Of a stretch of 38,214 bases of DNA, positions 5,967 through 32,171 are shown piece by piece. Origin of the DNA: Pseudobdellovibrionaceae bacterium. GTDB taxonomy: Bacteria; Bdellovibrionota; Bdellovibrionia; Bdellovibrionales; Bdellovibrionaceae. The translations under genes were made by a program, and so were the position numbers. Numbering within the stretch: position 1 is the stretch's first letter; each line of letters opens with the position of its first letter. Below the pieces are notes generated by a model that had not been told where the DNA came from, did not search any database, and was given only the letters and a program-made list of their open reading frames with translations. The stretch covers positions 1 to 38,214 of the forward strand of contig CANFQX010000023.1 in the NCBI GenBank assembly GCA_947449255.1. The letters run 5' to 3'.

Positions 5967-6009
5967 CCAACTTCCCCCCTGCTGGGAAGTTGGCCTCTCT
6001 GGTTTTTTT
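5967..6009 (+). terminator. Rho-independent-type terminator after the cysteine-repeat gene
   Basis: A perfect 10-base-pair stem, CCAACTTCCC (5967-5976) with GGGAAGTTGG (5984-5993), encloses a seven-base loop. Seven Ts follow at 6003-6009. An outer helix AAACCA/TGGTTT (from about 5960 and 6000) brings the T tract next to the stem. It lies 74 bases after the lipoprotein stop codon and 90 bases before the next gene, so the sulfoxide synthase gene should have its own promoter in 6010-6090. A short inverted repeat, TTCCTA-GAA-TAGGAA (6021-6035), lies in that interval. Confidence 0.75.
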
Positions 6010-6098: not shown

Positions 6099-9000
6099 AT
6101 GACTTACACTGTTTCAACACAAAGAAATCCAAATCTTTCCATTCCTCAACTAGACAAAAGCCTAAAAAATGAAATTCAAGAAGCTTTTGGCCAAAAATGG
6201 TGGACGGGCTTGGCTCCGGATTTTTGCCCAGGTTTTCATTATGAAAAAAAATATTTGCAGGCTTTGCCTTTAATCAATTTAAAAATCTGCAGTCGGCAGG
6301 ATGTCCTGGATTATTTCAATAACACCTGGACTTTGACAGAGCTTTTATTTGCTTCATTAAAAAACGAAACGGCCTTTACTCGCCCCCCCTACCATGAGCT
6401 TCGGCATCCACTGATTTTTTATTACGGACACCCCGCAGTTTTGTATTATAATAAAATGCGCATGGCCGGATTATTCAATGAGCCCGTGGATCTTTACTTA
6501 GAGAAAATTCTTGAAACAGGCGTTGATGAGATGAGCTGGGACGACATGTCCAAGAATGAAATGAAATGGCCCACCGTCAAGGCTGTACACGAATACCGGC
6601 AAAAAATTTACAATCACGTTGTGAATATTATAAAAACTCATCCGGGCCTAGCAGACCATCGCAGCGAGGAGATCCATCCGAACTCTGCCCTGTGGTCTTT
6701 ATTTATGGGTTTTGAGCATGAAAAAATACACTTTGAAACTTCCAGTGTATTGATGCGAGAACTTCCCCTTGAGTTGATAGAGACGCCCAGATATTGGGCC
6801 CCTCTTCATCCCTCTGCTTTATTCGAAAAAAATGCAAAAGGTGAGACAAAATCCAAAAAAAACAACCCCCTTGCTGATTCACTTTCTCTGCAGCTATGGC
6901 AAAATATCTCTGGTGGAACTGTGCATGCTGGCAAGCCCATCCATGCGCCTTCTTTTGGTTGGGACAATGAATACGGAACGAGGACTCAGCAGATCAAGGA
7001 CTTTCAAGTTAGAAAGTCCTTAGTCACAAATGCTGAATACTATGAATTTGTTGCAAGTCTTGATTACACGAACGATGCCTATTGGAGCCAAGAGGGCCAG
7101 CTATGGCGCAAGTTTAGAAACACTAAACGACCTACCTTTTGGGTTGCCCACGGGCCTGAAGGCCTCCATGAATATAAACTCCGCACGCTTTTTGATGTGA
7201 TTGAAATGCCCTGGAGTTGGCCCGCTGAAGTGAACTATCACGAAGCCAAAGCCTTCACTTTATGGCGCAATAAAAAAGATCAAAGTCCTCTAACATATCG
7301 GTTGATTACAGAGCTTGAGCACCTTCGACTCCGAGATCTAAACGATAAAGACCCTGTTCTGCAAAAAAATCATTACAGGTCATCGGGTGCTTCGGCGGAT
7401 CCTTCCACCATCGATTGCCATTTGGATGTGAATCTCAATTTACAGTATTCCTCTGCCAGTCCTGTTGATTTTTATTCTGAAAATAAATGTGGCGTTCACG
7501 ATATCTTTGGCAACGTCTGGCAATGGACTGAGGATCAGTTCAATCCCTTTGAAGGTTTTAAAGCGCATCCCTTGTATGACGATTTTTCAACGCCTTGTTT
7601 TGATGGAAAACATCAAATGATCCTAGGAGGCAGTTTTATCAGCTGCGGCCATGAAGCCAGCAAATGGGCGCGTTTTCACTTTAGACCTCATTTCTTTCAG
7701 CATGTGGGATTTCGAATTGCAGCAACCCTTGATGGCAGTGATGACAACCAATCTATCAAATTAAAAAAATCAACTGAGTACATTCATCCACAAAGAAAAA
7801 ATGTTCGAGCTCAAATGCAACAAGCCTTGTGGTGGAAAAACATACAACAGCCTTTAGATTTGACAGAACCTGAACTGACAGAACTTTGGAATCAGACTGT
7901 CTCTGCGATTTTGGAAGTCGAAAAAAATCGCGACCACTCATCACCTATGGGCTCAGCTCTTGATCCCGCAACCAATGATGTTGCCCAGAATTTCAGGGTC
8001 CCCTATCAAAGTGTCACAGCGTTTCCTGAAAGGTCAGAGGACTATCAAAAACTATTGAAATTGATTATTCATGACTTAGCGCCGACGGGACAACAGCCCG
8101 GACATCCTGGCTATATGGCCTATATGGCGGGGGCAGGAAATGCCATCAGCAATATGGCCCAAGCCCTGGCACAGACAATGAATCAATTCACAGGACATTT
8201 CAGTATGTCCCCGGGGCTTGTCAGTCTTGAAAATGAGGCTCTGCAGTGGATCATCAATATGTTGGGCTTCCCCACTGAAAGTGGAGGTGTTTTTACAACA
8301 GGAGCAAGTTTCGCCACCCTTTCAGCTCTCAGTATTGCAAGAAAAACAAAAATGAAGGGCTATGACCTCAGCCAAGTTCGATTTTATGCTTCTCTGCAGT
8401 CCCACCATTGCATCGGTAAAGCTTTGGCTTTTTTGGGCTTTCCCAAAGAGGCTTTAAAATTGATTGACGTGAATGAAAAATTTCAAATGAAACTAGATGA
8501 TTTGCGCCAGGCGATCAAGACGGATCAAGACCTTGGCCTTCAACCCCTTTGCCTGATTGGGACAGCCGGCACCACAACCTCTGGGGCTATCGATGATCTT
8601 GCAGAAATTGGAAAGATTGCTCACGCAAATAATATTTGGTTTCACATCGATGCAGCCTATGGTGGTTTTTTTCTACTCACTGGCAAAGGAAAAGAAAAAC
8701 TTCACGGAATTGAAAATGCCAATTCTATTGCCATGGATCCACACAAATCTCTTTCTTTACCTTATGGCACCGGCTGCTTGATTGTCCGTGATCGCCAATT
8801 GATGACTTATAAATATGGGGGATCGAGTTCCTATATGCCTCCTTCGGCAGAGACTGCGTTGGCGATGTCATCAAGCTCCCGAACTGATTTGGATTTTGCA
8901 GATATTTCGGCGGAACTCTCGCGAGATTTCCGCGGCCTGCGTTTTTGGCTGCCCCTCAAAATGTGGGGAGTTGCACCTTTTCAACTGAACTTAGAAGAGA

Positions 9001-9287
9001 AACTTGAACTGGCGCAATATTTAGCTCAGGAATTAAAAAACACAGCTGGCTTGACTTTGATCACCGATCCCCAGTTATCGGTTGTAAATTTCAAAATGAA
9101 AGAAAGTTCTCAAACGCGCGAATTATTAAAAAGGATCAACCAATCCCATCAGTTTTTCTTGAGTGGCTGCACCTTGAATAACGAATTTGTGATTCGAGTT
9201 TGTCTTTTAGGCTTTCGCTGTCACTTTGATGACATTCAAGCTCTCTTGCAATTCATACAAAAATCAGTGGTGGAGATGTCTACTTAA
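6099..9287 (+). CDS. ovoA: OvoA-type histidylcysteine sulfoxide synthase fused to a PLP-dependent decarboxylase
   Basis: 1062 residues; GGAG lies six bases before the ATG. Residues about 30-235 are the DinB-like domain with the mononuclear iron ligands of EgtB/OvoA: His111 (LRHPLIFYYGH), then His207 and His211 in HEKIHFE. The phrase GVDEMSWDD is typical of OvoA rather than EgtB. Residues about 270-560 are the formylglycine-enzyme-like domain (FGWDNEYGTR, EVNYHEAKAFTLWR, GNVWQWTED, GGSFISCGHEA). In known OvoA the C-terminus is a SAM methyltransferase. Here residues about 580-1062 are instead a group II (aromatic amino acid / glutamate type) decarboxylase domain: GGVFTTGASFATLSAL, SHHCIGKALAFLG, HIDAAYGGFF and DPHKS with PLP Lys883. 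Known OvoA joins cysteine sulfur to C5 of histidine. The fusion predicts decarboxylation of histidine, the sulfoxide or the thiohistidine. The next gene supplies a second PLP enzyme. Confidence 0.9.
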   Translation: MTYTVSTQRNPNLSIPQLDKSLKNEIQEAFGQKWWTGLAPDFCPGFHYEKKYLQALPLINLKICSRQDVLDYFNNTWTLTELLFASLKNETAFTRPPYHELRHPLIFYYGHPAVLYYNKMRMAGLFNEPVDLYLEKILETGVDEMSWDDMSKNEMKWPTVKAVHEYRQKIYNHVVNIIKTHPGLADHRSEEIHPNSALWSLFMGFEHEKIHFETSSVLMRELPLELIETPRYWAPLHPSALFEKNAKGETKSKKNNPLADSLSLQLWQNISGGTVHAGKPIHAPSFGWDNEYGTRTQQIKDFQVRKSLVTNAEYYEFVASLDYTNDAYWSQEGQLWRKFRNTKRPTFWVAHGPEGLHEYKLRTLFDVIEMPWSWPAEVNYHEAKAFTLWRNKKDQSPLTYRLITELEHLRLRDLNDKDPVLQKNHYRSSGASADPSTIDCHLDVNLNLQYSSASPVDFYSENKCGVHDIFGNVWQWTEDQFNPFEGFKAHPLYDDFSTPCFDGKHQMILGGSFISCGHEASKWARFHFRPHFFQHVGFRIAATLDGSDDNQSIKLKKSTEYIHPQRKNVRAQMQQALWWKNIQQPLDLTEPELTELWNQTVSAILEVEKNRDHSSPMGSALDPATNDVAQNFRVPYQSVTAFPERSEDYQKLLKLIIHDLAPTGQQPGHPGYMAYMAGAGNAISNMAQALAQTMNQFTGHFSMSPGLVSLENEALQWIINMLGFPTESGGVFTTGASFATLSALSIARKTKMKGYDLSQVRFYASLQSHHCIGKALAFLGFPKEALKLIDVNEKFQMKLDDLRQAIKTDQDLGLQPLCLIGTAGTTTSGAIDDLAEIGKIAHANNIWFHIDAAYGGFFLLTGKGKEKLHGIENANSIAMDPHKSLSLPYGTGCLIVRDRQLMTYKYGGSSSYMPPSAETALAMSSSSRTDLDFADISAELSRDFRGLRFWLPLKMWGVAPFQLNLEEKLELAQYLAQELKNTAGLTLITDPQLSVVNFKMKESSQTRELLKRINQSHQFFLSGCTLNNEFVIRVCLLGFRCHFDDIQALLQFIQKSVVEMST

Positions 9288-10418
9288 ATGAATCACCACA
9301 AACTGCTTCAATTTCAAGACCAATTTGCACGTCGTCCTGACCTCATTCATTTGAACAATGCGGGGCTGACACCAATTTCTCGGGCGGCAAGAGATAAAAT
9401 TAATTACTGGGCAGAGCGTTTTTATCAGGAAGGTTTTTGGACCGATGCGGACTATATGGCTGACGTTTTATCAGCTCGGCTTGCCTTGGCAAATTTAATT
9501 GGCTGCCAAGCGCAAGAAATTGCGTGGTATCAAAGCACGGCTGGTGCGATCAATCAATTTGCCTTTGGAATAGGCCTTCAGCCCGACGATGAGGTGCTGA
9601 TCTGGGACCAAGAGTACTCAAGTCATCTCTACCCCTGGAAAGAAGCTTGCGACCAAACAAAGGCACAACTGGTCGTGCTGAAATCCGAAGCTGATTTGGG
9701 CACTCCCACGGAAAAATATTTGCAGGCCTTAACAAAAAAAACAAAAGTGGCCGCCTTCAGTTGGGTGCAATTTAGTTCTGGTGCTCGCATGGATGTCGAG
9801 GCCGTGATTAAAGAATGCAAACGGCGGGGAATTTTTGTTTTCGTCGATATCGCCCAAGGCTTAGGAATTCATCCTTGCCAAATTTGGCATTGGGGTGCGG
9901 ATGCTGTAGCGGGTGCCAGTCATAAATGGCTCGTAAGCCCTGTCGGAGTTGGCTATTTGGCCATCCGAACAGAGCTAGCCCAAAAAATGAAGCCGCGAAT
10001 ATTTGGAGCCTACACCTTTGGCACCTGTGATGACCCCTCTGATTTTGCCTGCGAACCTAAGCGAGATGCTACAAAATTTGAACCTGGCTCAAAACAGGTC
10101 ATTGAGATCACTGCACTAGGAGCCTCCTGCCAACTCATTCACGATATCAGCGTTGAAGTCATTGAAGCAGAAGCGCTTCGTCTGGCTCACCGCTTGCGCC
10201 GAGGATTAGAGTCCAAGGGGCATGAGTTGCTCAATCCTTTTGGCAAGGCCTCGATCTCCCTCATGGTTAACTTCTTACCCACTCAGGGCATTGCAGAAGT
10301 ATCGGTCACACTAACCACAAACAATATCAACTTTGCTCGTCGAGGGGGCGGAATTCGACTCTCGACTCATGCCTTCAATACAGATCAAGAAATTGATAAA
10401 GTCCTGTCTCTGCTATAA
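9288..10418 (+). CDS. Class V aminotransferase-fold PLP enzyme, probable C-S lyase (EgtE/OvoB-like)
   Basis: 376 residues. Its ATG follows the stop of the sulfoxide synthase fusion with no gap (TAAATG), so the two are cotranscribed and probably translationally coupled. The fold is class V aminotransferase (cysteine desulfurase, isopenicillin N epimerase, EgtE): LIHLNNAGLTPIS at the N-terminus, FVDIAQGLGIHP with the PLP-binding Asp, and the Schiff-base Lys213 in GASHKWLVSPVGVGYLAIR. EgtE performs the C-S cleavage that frees the thiol in ergothioneine synthesis, and OvoB does the same for ovothiol. Context therefore favours cleavage of a histidylcysteine (or histaminylcysteine) sulfoxide to a thiol. 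A generic desulfurase or epimerase role cannot be excluded. No methyltransferase gene is nearby. Confidence 0.82.
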   Translation: MNHHKLLQFQDQFARRPDLIHLNNAGLTPISRAARDKINYWAERFYQEGFWTDADYMADVLSARLALANLIGCQAQEIAWYQSTAGAINQFAFGIGLQPDDEVLIWDQEYSSHLYPWKEACDQTKAQLVVLKSEADLGTPTEKYLQALTKKTKVAAFSWVQFSSGARMDVEAVIKECKRRGIFVFVDIAQGLGIHPCQIWHWGADAVAGASHKWLVSPVGVGYLAIRTELAQKMKPRIFGAYTFGTCDDPSDFACEPKRDATKFEPGSKQVIEITALGASCQLIHDISVEVIEAEALRLAHRLRRGLESKGHELLNPFGKASISLMVNFLPTQGIAEVSVTLTTNNINFARRGGGIRLSTHAFNTDQEIDKVLSLL

Positions 10419-10469
10419 AAACCAAACCGGATTTGACCAAAACATACACTTGCGAGAACCTCATGGTGT

Positions 10470-11384
10470 ATGAATAAAAAATTTCACCATCTCATTTCAG
10501 AAGCCTCTAAAATTATTCTCGATAAAAATGCCGAAATTCGTTTGGCAGCCACTTGCCTTTTGGCTGGCGGACACTTGCTGATTGAAGATTTACCTGGGGT
10601 TGGTAAAACGACTTTAGTGCAGGTCCTAGCGAAATTGCTGGGATTAAAAAATCGTCGCATTCAATTTACCATTGATTTGCTGCCCGCTGATATTATTGGC
10701 GGCCAAATCTTTCACCCCCAAGAGCAAAAATTTATCTTTCATCCCGGCCCCTTATTTTCTTCAATTGTAATGGCTGATGAGCTCAATCGTGCCAGTCCCA
10801 GAACTCAGAGCGCACTCTTGCAAGCCATGGAAGAAGGTGAAGTCTCCGTCGATGGGACAACCTGGAAATTGCCAAGACCTTTTTATCTGATTGCCACGCA
10901 AAATCCGCACAAACAAATTGGCACTTTTCCATTGCCTGAAAGCCAATTGGATCGTTTTCTTATGAGCTTAGAACTTCACCACGCTTCAAAAAGCACCGAG
11001 GTCACTATCTTCCAAAGAAAAGATGCTAAACTTTCAATGGATCAAATTGAATCTCTTTTTAGCGAGCAAGAAATTATCGAAATCCTAACCCAGGTTGAGG
11101 AAGTTCAAATATCGCCGGCCGTGGCCCTCTATATTGCTGATCTGCTAGAGCGCTCAAGACGACCTGATTTTGAAGGCATGCAGCTCTCGACTCGTGCCGG
11201 ATTAGCTCTTGTGAGGGCTGCGAAGGCTTGGGCCTTTATGGAAGGAAGAACTTACGTGCGACCCGAGGATGTTCAAGAAGTTTTAATACCTGTACTTGGT
11301 CACCGACTTGGAGGAAGCCATGGCATCAATAAAGGCCGTGAGTGGGCCCTTGCTCTACAAAAAAATACAGCAGTTCCTGTTTAA
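10470..11384 (+). CDS. MoxR-family AAA+ ATPase
   Basis: 304 residues, the usual MoxR length. Walker A is EDLPGVGKTTL with Lys46, Walker B and sensor context is SSIVMADELNRASPRTQSAL (about residues 92-112), followed by the MoxR hallmark LLQAMEEGEVSVDG and sensor-1 Asn in IATQNPHK. The C-terminal lid has STRAGLALVRAAKAWA. MoxR ATPases act as chaperones with a DUF58 partner and often with membrane transglutaminase and VWA proteins. Here the DUF58 and transglutaminase genes follow in overlapping frames, so the three form one operon. No VWA gene is present. The ribosome-binding site before the ATG is weak. Confidence 0.93.
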   Translation: MNKKFHHLISEASKIILDKNAEIRLAATCLLAGGHLLIEDLPGVGKTTLVQVLAKLLGLKNRRIQFTIDLLPADIIGGQIFHPQEQKFIFHPGPLFSSIVMADELNRASPRTQSALLQAMEEGEVSVDGTTWKLPRPFYLIATQNPHKQIGTFPLPESQLDRFLMSLELHHASKSTEVTIFQRKDAKLSMDQIESLFSEQEIIEILTQVEEVQISPAVALYIADLLERSRRPDFEGMQLSTRAGLALVRAAKAWAFMEGRTYVRPEDVQEVLIPVLGHRLGGSHGINKGREWALALQKNTAVPV

Positions 11385-12264: not shown

Positions 12265-14207
12265 ATAAAAGTTTTTTTTCGCAAAAGTTTTTTTCTTTTT
12301 CAATGATCATTGCGATGGGAATGTTAGCCTTTGAGGTTTCCTTCGCAGTAACTTTTTTTTGCATCGCAATGATCTTTTGGAAGTGGGGAACTGAATCGAG
12401 GTCTTGGCCAAATCTTTCAAGAAAAGTCACAGGTGCACTCAGTGTCTTGCTCCTCGTTGGAATTCTTTTAAAATACCGCACCCTGATGCAACAAGAGCCC
12501 GCTTTTACATTTTTACTGGGGCTGTCTGCACTAAAAATTGTCGACTATATCAATGAACGGGACCATAAATTTCTGGTCTTATTGGGCTTTTTACTTTTAG
12601 GAGCAAAGTCACTCTTCACCTTGGACTTCATCTGGATTGTTCCTTCGACAGTGGCCTTGATTGGGCTATGGTCATCACTGCTTCCATCCTTTTTAAAACA
12701 CCAAACCAGCTATCTCATAAAGATTTCTATTTATTCATTGCCAATGACAGTTCTGCTCTTCTTTGCCTTTCCAAGGGTTGTCCTTCCCTGGGCCATTTCC
12801 AGGGGTGGGGACGCCCAAGGGGACATTGGCTTTTCTGATGAGACAGATCCTGGAAGAATGAGTGAAATTGCATCTGGGCCCAATATTGCTTTTCGCGTGA
12901 AACTTGAAAATATTTACTTCAATAAACCGAAGAGTTTTTATTGGAGAGGTGCCGTACTCACTTTTTCCAAGGGCCTGAGTTGGAGACCAGGGCATTCAGA
13001 ACTAAAAACAACCCAGGAAACAGACTTTTCTAAAGAGGTATTTTACGATGTGGCCATAGAAGCGACTTCACAAAATTTTTTATTTGCCCTTGATGGCACC
13101 ACGGCCATCGACCTTCCTGAAAACACTGTCCTTACTTCGACTTTTTTAACTTTCAAGACTGTTCACCCCCTACTGAAGTCTGCGGTTTATCGCGGTTACT
13201 GGAAAAACAAATCGATTGATTCTGAAAAACCAAATGATGACTTTTTGCAAACGCCTAGCCTCAGGGGTAGGTCGTTAAAATGGGTCGAAAATATTAAAAA
13301 TAAAAAACTCCTTGAATATCAAAAAATCGACGAGTTAAAAAAATTATTTTCTGCTGATTACACTTACACTCTGAAACCTGGAAGTTACCGTGAAGATGAG
13401 CTCAACACCTTCCTTTTTGATCGCAAAAAAGGCTTTTGTGAACACTTTGCCGGAGCTTATGCTACCCTTGCGCGCGCCATAGGAATTCCCTCTCGCGTCG
13501 TTGTCGGCTATCAAGGTGGTCGATACAATCCTGTGGGAGAATTTTGGAAAATTTCACAAAAAGATGCTCATGCCTGGGTTGAAATATACACTGAAAGTTC
13601 ATGGAAAAGAATTGACCCTACATCCTGGGTGGCACCACTTCGATTAGAAATTGGTGGAGAAGAATTTTTTTCCCTCAATGAAGAGGATCAAAAATATTTT
13701 AGTCACTCCCTCCAAAAATCTCTTCGTTCACAGAACAGCGTTGAACTTTGGGATAAATTGAGTTTTTGGTTGGAAGATTTGAATTATCGTTGGGTCTATT
13801 TTTTACTAGAATATGACAAATCAAGCCAGGAAGGACTTTGGAGTAAAATATTTAGCTATAAAGTGAGCACTTTAATTACATTTATTTTGGCTCTTATTCT
13901 TAATATTCTTTTATTTCGAAAATTTTTATCCCAGCGCTCATCAAAAAATCAGGCACAAATGCTTATTGATAAAGTTGAAACTTTTGGCAGCAAAATGGGA
14001 CTTAGCCGAGCTCCCTCTGAACCGCCACTGGCTTATTTAAAAAGACTCGCAAAAGAACTTCCCGAATTGAATGAAGCTCTTTCAAAAATTGAAACCTATT
14101 ATGATCACAGAATGTACGCGGGCACAGCCCCGTCCACTTCGGGCCATGAGGTTTTAAAAATTTGGAAAGCCAAAGTGAAGAAGATTGCCTCAAAACCAAG
14201 TCAATGA
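12261..14207 (+). CDS. Membrane transglutaminase-like protein (TgpA/DUF3488 type)
   Basis: 648 residues from the GTG at 12261, which overlaps the DUF58 stop as GTGA and has GGAG seven bases upstream; an ATG at 12219 lacks this arrangement. Residues about 10-175 hold several membrane segments (DUF3488-like). The periplasmic part ends in a transglutaminase-like domain with catalytic Cys393 (KKGFCEHFAGAYATLARAIG), His437 (DAHAWVEIY) and Asp452 (WKRIDPTSW). A last membrane segment (STLITFILALILNILLF) and a cytoplasmic tail with a DUF4129-like end follow. Known relatives are TgpA of Pseudomonas and proteins in MoxR-DUF58 operons. The triad is complete, so the enzyme should be active as a transglutaminase or peptidase. 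Its substrate is unknown. Confidence 0.9.
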   Translation: MNKSFFSQKFFSFSMIIAMGMLAFEVSFAVTFFCIAMIFWKWGTESRSWPNLSRKVTGALSVLLLVGILLKYRTLMQQEPAFTFLLGLSALKIVDYINERDHKFLVLLGFLLLGAKSLFTLDFIWIVPSTVALIGLWSSLLPSFLKHQTSYLIKISIYSLPMTVLLFFAFPRVVLPWAISRGGDAQGDIGFSDETDPGRMSEIASGPNIAFRVKLENIYFNKPKSFYWRGAVLTFSKGLSWRPGHSELKTTQETDFSKEVFYDVAIEATSQNFLFALDGTTAIDLPENTVLTSTFLTFKTVHPLLKSAVYRGYWKNKSIDSEKPNDDFLQTPSLRGRSLKWVENIKNKKLLEYQKIDELKKLFSADYTYTLKPGSYREDELNTFLFDRKKGFCEHFAGAYATLARAIGIPSRVVVGYQGGRYNPVGEFWKISQKDAHAWVEIYTESSWKRIDPTSWVAPLRLEIGGEEFFSLNEEDQKYFSHSLQKSLRSQNSVELWDKLSFWLEDLNYRWVYFLLEYDKSSQEGLWSKIFSYKVSTLITFILALILNILLFRKFLSQRSSKNQAQMLIDKVETFGSKMGLSRAPSEPPLAYLKRLAKELPELNEALSKIETYYDHRMYAGTAPSTSGHEVLKIWKAKVKKIASKPSQ

Positions 14208-14223
14208 ACTGAGAAACAATACA

Positions 14224-14246
14224 AAAATGAATTTCATATTCATTTT
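14224..14246. repeat. AT-rich inverted repeat downstream of the transglutaminase gene
   Basis: AAAATGAAT (14224-14232) and ATTCATTTT (14238-14246) are perfect nine-base arms around the five-base spacer TTCAT. It begins 17 bases after the transglutaminase stop codon. With no GC in the stem beyond one pair and no T tract after it, it is a poor terminator. It could be a protein-binding site or a weak mRNA 3' hairpin. Confidence 0.4.
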
Positions 14247-14355
14247 CATGGCAATTTCTTTCCAACGAAGGTCAACACTCAAACATGGACTTCTTTCATT
14301 TTCGGCGGAAAGAATCGACCTAAAATGGAACGCTAATTAGCACTCAATAGATAAC

Positions 14356-14385
14356 AAGGTCCTTTTTTATAAAAAACAAGACCTT
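14356..14385 (+). promoter_or_regulatory. Inverted repeat in the porin leader region
   Basis: AAGGTC (14356-14361) pairs with GACCTT (14380-14385), and between them TTTTTT-AT-AAAAAA pairs with itself, so nearly the whole 30 bases can fold into one hairpin. It lies 61 bases before the porin start codon. It could be an mRNA leader structure or an operator. A nearby palindrome, GCTAATTAGC, is at 14332-14341. The rest of this 239-base gap shows no gene, and no good promoter was identified. Confidence 0.4.
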
Positions 14386-14446
14386 CAGCAGATCCTTTTT
14401 CTAGCACCAAGCATTTACTATTTTTGCCAGAAACCGATTAATAAAT

Positions 14447-31622: not shown

Positions 31623-32171
31623 TTAAGCCAAACTCTTTTCGATGGCATTAACCAAAATTGTATCATTTGGATCCATATCCGGAGCAAAGCGACCAGCCAC
31701 AGTTCCATCACGTGCAATCAGAAATTTTTCAAAATTCCAAAGCACATCCATTGGGTTTGTGCGAATTTCTCCGTACCCAATCAGTTTATTTTCAAAATCA
31801 CTGTCGGGGCTCTTGATCGTTTGAGGCTGCTCCGTCGTTAAAAATTTATAAAGTGGATGTTGCTCGACTCCCTTAACAGTGACTTTAGCAAACATCGGGA
31901 ATTTAACGCCAAATTTCATGGTGCAGAATTCTTTGATCTCAGCATTGCTGCCGGGCTCTTGACCTGCAAACTCATTGGCCGGGAATCCCAGGACTTCAAA
32001 ACCTTGTGCTTGATATTTTCTGTACAGTTTTTCTAAGCCTTCGTATTGAGGGGTCAGGCCACATTTTGAAGCCACATTGACAATCAGCAGAGCCTTGCCC
32101 TTAAATTGTTCTAAAGAAGTTTTGTTCCCGTTGATATCTTGCACATTAAATCCGTAGACGTTGCTTTGCAT
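31623..32171 (-). CDS. Glutathione peroxidase-family peroxidase (cysteine form)
   Basis: 182 residues. Family motifs are LLIVNVASKCGLTPQYEGLE with peroxidatic Cys37 in place of selenocysteine, GFPANEFAGQEPG with the catalytic Gln, and DVLWNFEKFLIARDGTV with the catalytic Trp and Asn. It reduces peroxides; cysteine forms in bacteria mostly use thioredoxin. There is no signal peptide, so it is cytoplasmic. A separate resolving cysteine may be the one in EIKEFCTMKFG. It stands alone, with a hairpin after its stop. Confidence 0.94.
   Translation of the reverse strand: MQSNVYGFNVQDINGNKTSLEQFKGKALLIVNVASKCGLTPQYEGLEKLYRKYQAQGFEVLGFPANEFAGQEPGSNAEIKEFCTMKFGVKFPMFAKVTVKGVEQHPLYKFLTTEQPQTIKSPDSDFENKLIGYGEIRTNPMDVLWNFEKFLIARDGTVAGRFAPDMDPNDTILVNAIEKSLA

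Follow-up and report, generated by a model that had tools for sequence, protein, structure and literature searches.

Which product can be expected of an OvoA-type sulfoxide synthase that carries, in the place of its methyltransferase, a complete PLP decarboxylase? The question is raised by two adjacent genes in the window, i.e. the whole 38,214-nucleotide stretch of Pseudobdellovibrionaceae DNA analysed here. An earlier note, made from the sequence alone, had proposed that this pair yields 5-thiohistamine or a related amine thiol instead of ovothiol.

Table 1. Features of the two-gene locus (positions in the window).
Feature	Position	Strand	Basis
Terminator-like stem-loop, between upstream gene and fused gene	5967..5993		Consensus match only
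Fused gene, OvoA sulfoxide synthase - group II PLP decarboxylase, 1062 aa	6099..9287	+	ORF, domain matches
OvoA-type sulfoxide synthase domain, residues 60-540	6276..7718	+	TIGR04344; position from genome search
Group II PLP decarboxylase domain, residues 600-1062	7896..9284	+	PF00282, alignment, AlphaFold2 model
Class V PLP enzyme gene, 376 aa, predicted 5-histidylcysteine sulfoxide C-S lyase	9288..10418	+	PF00266, linkage, alignment

The fused gene and its partner

Both reading frames described in the earlier note were found at the position given there (Table 1). The class V gene indeed follows the fusion without a gap, its ATG at 9288 standing directly after the TAA at 9285-9287, and its product matches PF00266 (Aminotran_5) with 152 bits and has a Schiff-base lysine, Lys213. 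The stem-loop upstream of the fused gene, as judged by its match to the consensus, suggests that the fusion and the class V gene form a transcription unit of their own. On the 3′ side, MoxR/DUF58/transglutaminase genes start at 10470, and these are not kept beside the pair in other genomes. The earlier note had seen no methyltransferase nearby, and GidB, which acts on rRNA, is the one methyltransferase noticed in the window, at a distance of 17 kb. Likewise, a profile search of the fused protein itself did not detect the C-terminal SAM methyltransferase (TIGR04345) that defines a complete ovothiol synthase, OvoA-OvoC.

The N-terminal domain (residues 60-540) matches the OvoA profile TIGR04344 with 577 bits (cut-off 400) and contains the OvoA motif YDDFSTP at residues 493-499. 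The three iron-binding residues that had been named, His111, His207 and His211, are correct and are invariant in an alignment of 21 relatives. Solved relatives of this domain are OvoA in complex with histidine and cysteine (8khq, the best) and EgtB-IV, the type IV ergothioneine sulfoxide synthase (8vih). Although fold and iron site are common to the latter, the fused clade sides with OvoA at all 17 OvoA-wide invariants at which EgtB-IV differs, which rules out that the domain is an EgtB-IV.

The C-terminal part is a full PLP decarboxylase, as first described, and PF00282 (Pyridoxal_deC) matches residues 640-1001 with 204 bits (cut-off 27). We aligned it with human histidine decarboxylase (HDC; sequence verified against 4e1o), DDC, GAD65 and the tryptophan decarboxylase of R. 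gnavus (4obu). All 21 fused proteins have the catalytic residues His769, Asp851, Lys883 (the Schiff base), Tyr912 (in the catalytic loop) and Arg1033; identity to 4obu and 4e1o is ∼25%. Because the model of the full-length fused protein was mediocre (pLDDT 66), the decarboxylase domain was folded alone, giving an AlphaFold2 model with pLDDT 92.9 and pTM 0.91. This model superposes on 4obv with Z 51, on 4e1o with Z 46.8 and on cysteine sulfinate decarboxylase (CSAD) with Z 47; overall, tryptophan, lysine, glutamate, cysteine sulfinate and histidine decarboxylases score between 46 and 51. The decarboxylase fold can be taken as certain, in contrast to the substrate.

Judged from the alignment, the pocket is not diagnostic of the substrate. 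Ser941, found in all 21 fused proteins, is the equivalent of Ser354 of HDC, a position at which DDC has Gly; a Ser is seen here in standalone decarboxylase relatives as well, and the equivalents of HDC Trp72, Tyr81 and Leu102 differ in the fused decarboxylase. The invariants confined to the fused clade include Pro667, Asn681, His700, Asp943 and Asn964, and position 677 is Ala or Ser in this clade and Pro in nearly all other proteins. Some of these fused-only residues lie, by homology, near the predicted pocket, which would fit a changed substrate without naming which. The neighbours of the standalone relatives gave no shared hint of a substrate.

Distribution and origin of the fusion

The earlier note had proposed a database search for this domain order. 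When 369 genomes of the Bdellovibrionota were searched with a profile built from the fused protein, about 22 proved to carry an intact fusion: nine in the family of the window, one in a neighbouring family and twelve in one Bacteriovorax-like genus. It is therefore not a product of chance. In two more genomes of the latter genus, the fusion is broken by a transposase or split across contigs; in one of them (L143, contig G154:C17), a Tn5-like transposase gene at 9183-10499 on the minus strand interrupts the OvoA part, which is intact in relatives of the same genus. A scan of ∼85,000 species, using one genome per species and short peptide patterns and hence not exhaustive, found the fusion in Bdellovibrionota records only, among them that of Bdellovibrio sp. 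qaytius, a complete genome.

At every locus with readable downstream DNA, the class V gene lies 3′ of the fusion, while the remaining neighbours vary among lineages; the unit thus consists of exactly two genes. Several of the variable neighbours deserve mention. Genes for MsrB (SelR), a DsbD-thioredoxin protein and a HutD-like protein stand directly upstream of the fusion in another species of the window's genus (L115, 4860-8155). A glutathione peroxidase gene lies just upstream of, and divergent to, the fused gene at three loci (L034, at 7295-7783, L119 and L120). That some copies of the fusion adjoin genes of such redox proteins (glutathione peroxidase, MsrB, DsbD-like) faintly suggests a redox role. 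In the window, a glutathione peroxidase gene is found at 31623-32171, 21 kb from the fused gene. No glutathione synthetase domain was seen in the window's genome; however, a link between the fusion and the loss of glutathione synthetase showed no clean pattern among 28 genomes.

The phylogeny of the two domains points to a single event. In a tree of 88 OvoA domains, all 23 fused ones group together in a single clade with SH-aLRT 100, nested within the OvoA-methyltransferase proteins, and the nearest non-fused row is an OvoA-methyltransferase, its domain content checked, from another species of the window's genus. The fused decarboxylase domains likewise make up a single clade (SH-aLRT 100), here among uncharacterized standalone decarboxylases of the phylum. 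Since both trees show single nested clades, we conclude from the sequences that the decarboxylase replaced the OvoA methyltransferase once, by a domain swap, and so occupies the methyltransferase's place, as the first reading of the locus had it. Comparison of close pairs gave dN values of roughly 0.03-0.19, with dS near 1 or saturated, and both domains behaved alike; such low dN against high dS indicates purifying selection on the OvoA as well as the decarboxylase domain.

An independent, unfused OvoA and decarboxylase operon could not be established in another phylum. Two candidates were given no weight. In Actinophytocola (L056), an OvoA gene is followed, after a distance of about 2.7 kb that leaves the linkage doubtful, by a decarboxylase gene at 13002-14411, whose product is fairly close to the fused domain (349 bits); the methyltransferase domain of this OvoA scores below its cut-off. 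In the other genome (G133), a generic decarboxylase gene lies near an EgtB-like gene, but this decarboxylase is a distant one and the sulfoxide synthase is of the EgtB type.

Proposed assignment of the three steps

We consider it likely, on the strength of homology and gene linkage, that the two genes make a decarboxylated 5-thiohistidine, along the route histidine and cysteine to sulfoxide to 5-thiohistidine to 5-thiohistamine. As far as sequences go, the comparison agrees with the proposal of the earlier note. In the first step, the non-haem iron OvoA domain would use O2 to join histidine and cysteine into 5-histidylcysteine sulfoxide, as predicted by homology and residue conservation. The adjacent class V enzyme would then cut the C-S bond to release 5-thiohistidine, which is OvoB's job, an assignment drawn from its constant linkage to OvoA. 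Finally, the C-terminal decarboxylase would strip the alpha-carboxylate to give 5-thiohistamine, 4-(2-aminoethyl)imidazole-5-thiol. The methyltransferase fused to classical OvoA takes the third step, with the 5-thiohistidine released by OvoB as its substrate (PMC12631010); because the decarboxylase has the same place in the protein, it may by analogy act third as well. The order of the last two steps could be reversed, with the histidyl part of the sulfoxide decarboxylated first, and the product would be identical.

The lyase step could in principle be assigned to either of the two PLP enzymes. Close relatives of the class V protein (249-298 bits) are encoded directly 3′ of short OvoA genes in three genomes of the same taxonomic order (L109/G105, L110/G099 and L111/G103), and these OvoA genes have neither a methyltransferase nor a decarboxylase domain. 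Given these relatives adjoining OvoA without a decarboxylase, and the constant OvoA linkage, we infer that the class V enzyme takes OvoB's place as the C-S lyase. The class V protein also shows a match to EgtE/Egt2, which are known sulfoxide lyases, although it scores only 62 bits against the EgtE family TIGR04343, below the cut-off of 400. A cysteine desulfurase of the SufS/IscS type was rejected, as Cys is absent from the 90 C-terminal residues of the protein; its C-terminal loop reads GGGIRLSTHAFNT. Most of the OvoA-methyltransferase genes of the phylum that were examined and have a lyase-like neighbour are accompanied by a class I/II aminotransferase-like gene, i.e. the OvoB type. The three short OvoA/class V pairs represent a minimal two-gene arrangement, which may end at 5-thiohistidine itself.

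These observations bear on the alternative that the decarboxylase has been repurposed, e.g. as the C-S lyase or as an aldehyde-forming oxidative deaminase, with the class V enzyme doing something else. PLP enzymes of a single fold can switch reaction, and the many fused-specific invariants would agree with such a change; still, we regard it as improbable. The class V relatives occur beside OvoA where there is no decarboxylase, and the match to EgtE/Egt2 again points to the class V protein for C-S cleavage, so that it is unlikely that the two PLP domains have exchanged roles, as the earlier note had considered. Plant relatives with Phe in place of the catalytic-loop Tyr are aldehyde synthases. 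In the fused proteins, the loop Tyr (Tyr912, in the motif SYMPP) is invariant in 21 of 21 and never Phe, which disfavours an aromatic aldehyde synthase.

Alternatively, free histidine could be the substrate of the decarboxylase, and the histamine so formed could then be coupled with cysteine by the sulfoxide synthase. The resemblance of the decarboxylase fold and of Ser941 to histidine decarboxylase would agree with this order, but a switch to a substrate lacking the carboxylate should alter the binding site, and all OvoA-wide invariants, which are shaped by histidine, are kept in the fused clade. Fused-specific changes in the OvoA domain are just four and mild (Y93, L138, K209 and F448), and OvoA genes exist with a close class V relative but no decarboxylase. 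From this residue conservation, the first step, from histidine and cysteine to 5-histidylcysteine sulfoxide, appears unchanged; histamine is disfavoured as a substrate of the N-terminal domain, and we rate decarboxylation of free histidine as very improbable. Among the three decarboxylase substrates put forward earlier, histidine is thus the unlikely one, while the sulfoxide and the thiohistidine stay.

The locus might also make ordinary ovothiol through an unlinked methyltransferase, the decarboxylase being an unrelated passenger of the fusion. Ovothiol methyltransferases can in principle sit elsewhere in a genome; however, the OvoA-type methyltransferase profile TIGR04345 found nothing above its cut-off in the genome of the window (best 27.6 bits versus 170), and a passenger would hardly be retained over three families with strong purifying selection on both domains. 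There is, in our judgement, only a slight chance that this is the case. Finally, OvoA has a cysteine dioxygenase side activity and CSAD shares the fold (Z 47), but it is hardly credible that the decarboxylase converts the OvoA side product cysteine sulfinic acid to hypotaurine, since Tyr675 is as in HDC/DDC where GAD65, to whose acidic-substrate group CSAD belongs, has Gln, Ser941 is Gly in GAD65, and the linkage to a C-S lyase would be left without explanation.

Relation to known histidine-thiol pathways

The proposed pathway, with 5-thiohistamine as its predicted product, combines known parts in a different way. With OvoA-OvoC, the 5-histidylcysteine sulfoxide synthase and 5-thiohistidine N-pi-methyltransferase (8khq), the fusion shares the family of the N-terminal domain, its iron ligands and invariants, and the C-terminal position of the tailoring domain. 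It differs in that this domain is a group II PLP decarboxylase instead of the SAM methyltransferase, and in that the partner lyase is class V rather than class I/II. OvoB-type neighbours in the phylum are class I/II aminotransferase-like. EgtE/Egt2 and OvoB resemble the class V protein in their role as a PLP C-S lyase beside a sulfoxide synthase, the role predicted here, and EgtE also in its class V fold, from whose family profile the protein is nonetheless set apart by the cut-off. The fused decarboxylase shares fold and the Lys/Asp/His/Tyr/Arg set with the R. gnavus tryptophan decarboxylase (4obu) and HDC (4e1o), and has the Ser354 equivalent of the latter; unlike both, it is joined to OvoA and has a pocket signature of its own (Pro667, Ala/Ser677, His700 and Asp943).

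Enzymatic end products described for 5-thiohistidine are ovothiol and, since 2025, N-acetyl-5-thiohistidine only; besides the N-acetyltransferase 5THNAT, only the methyltransferase of OvoA is known to use a 5-thiohistidine, and it has been argued that this product class may be more diverse (PMC12631010). Like the fusion as predicted here, 5THNAT is an OvoA-linked tailoring enzyme by which 5-thiohistidine is drawn away from ovothiol (PMC12631010); it acetylates, is encoded by a separate gene and belongs to Bacteroidota, whereas the fusion is predicted to decarboxylate, is part of one protein and belongs to Bdellovibrionota. In one genome of the latter phylum, an OvoA-methyltransferase gene is followed by a GNAT acetyltransferase gene and then by a class V PLP gene (L136, G213:C34, 3324-7047), a possible 5-thiohistidine acetylation operon that recalls 5THNAT of Bacteroidota.

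A review records bacterial OvoA without a methyltransferase as well as OvoB-OvoA fusions, but not a fusion to a decarboxylase. The literature searched, which gives partial coverage and may miss an earlier mention, holds no report of an OvoA-decarboxylase fusion; thiohistamine is not mentioned in it, and mercaptohistamine appears only as a reference to the 2-isomer. The predicted 5-thiohistamine would thus be a so far unreported small thiol in predatory-type bacteria, relatives of Bdellovibrio and Bacteriovorax, in which it would likely serve as a low-molecular-weight redox thiol. On balance, we lean towards the wider view that Bdellovibrionota make 5-thiohistamine for a dedicated redox function, using an operon of two genes that goes back to the exchange of the OvoA methyltransferase for a decarboxylase. 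This conserved swap of a tailoring domain leads to a concrete prediction, 5-thiohistamine, for which two genes are sufficient as a test, and Bdellovibrio sp. qaytius offers a carrier with a complete genome. If true, a histamine-like thiol would join bacterial redox chemistry, sulfoxide-synthase pathways would gain a new architecture, and histidine-thiol metabolism would have a further branch.
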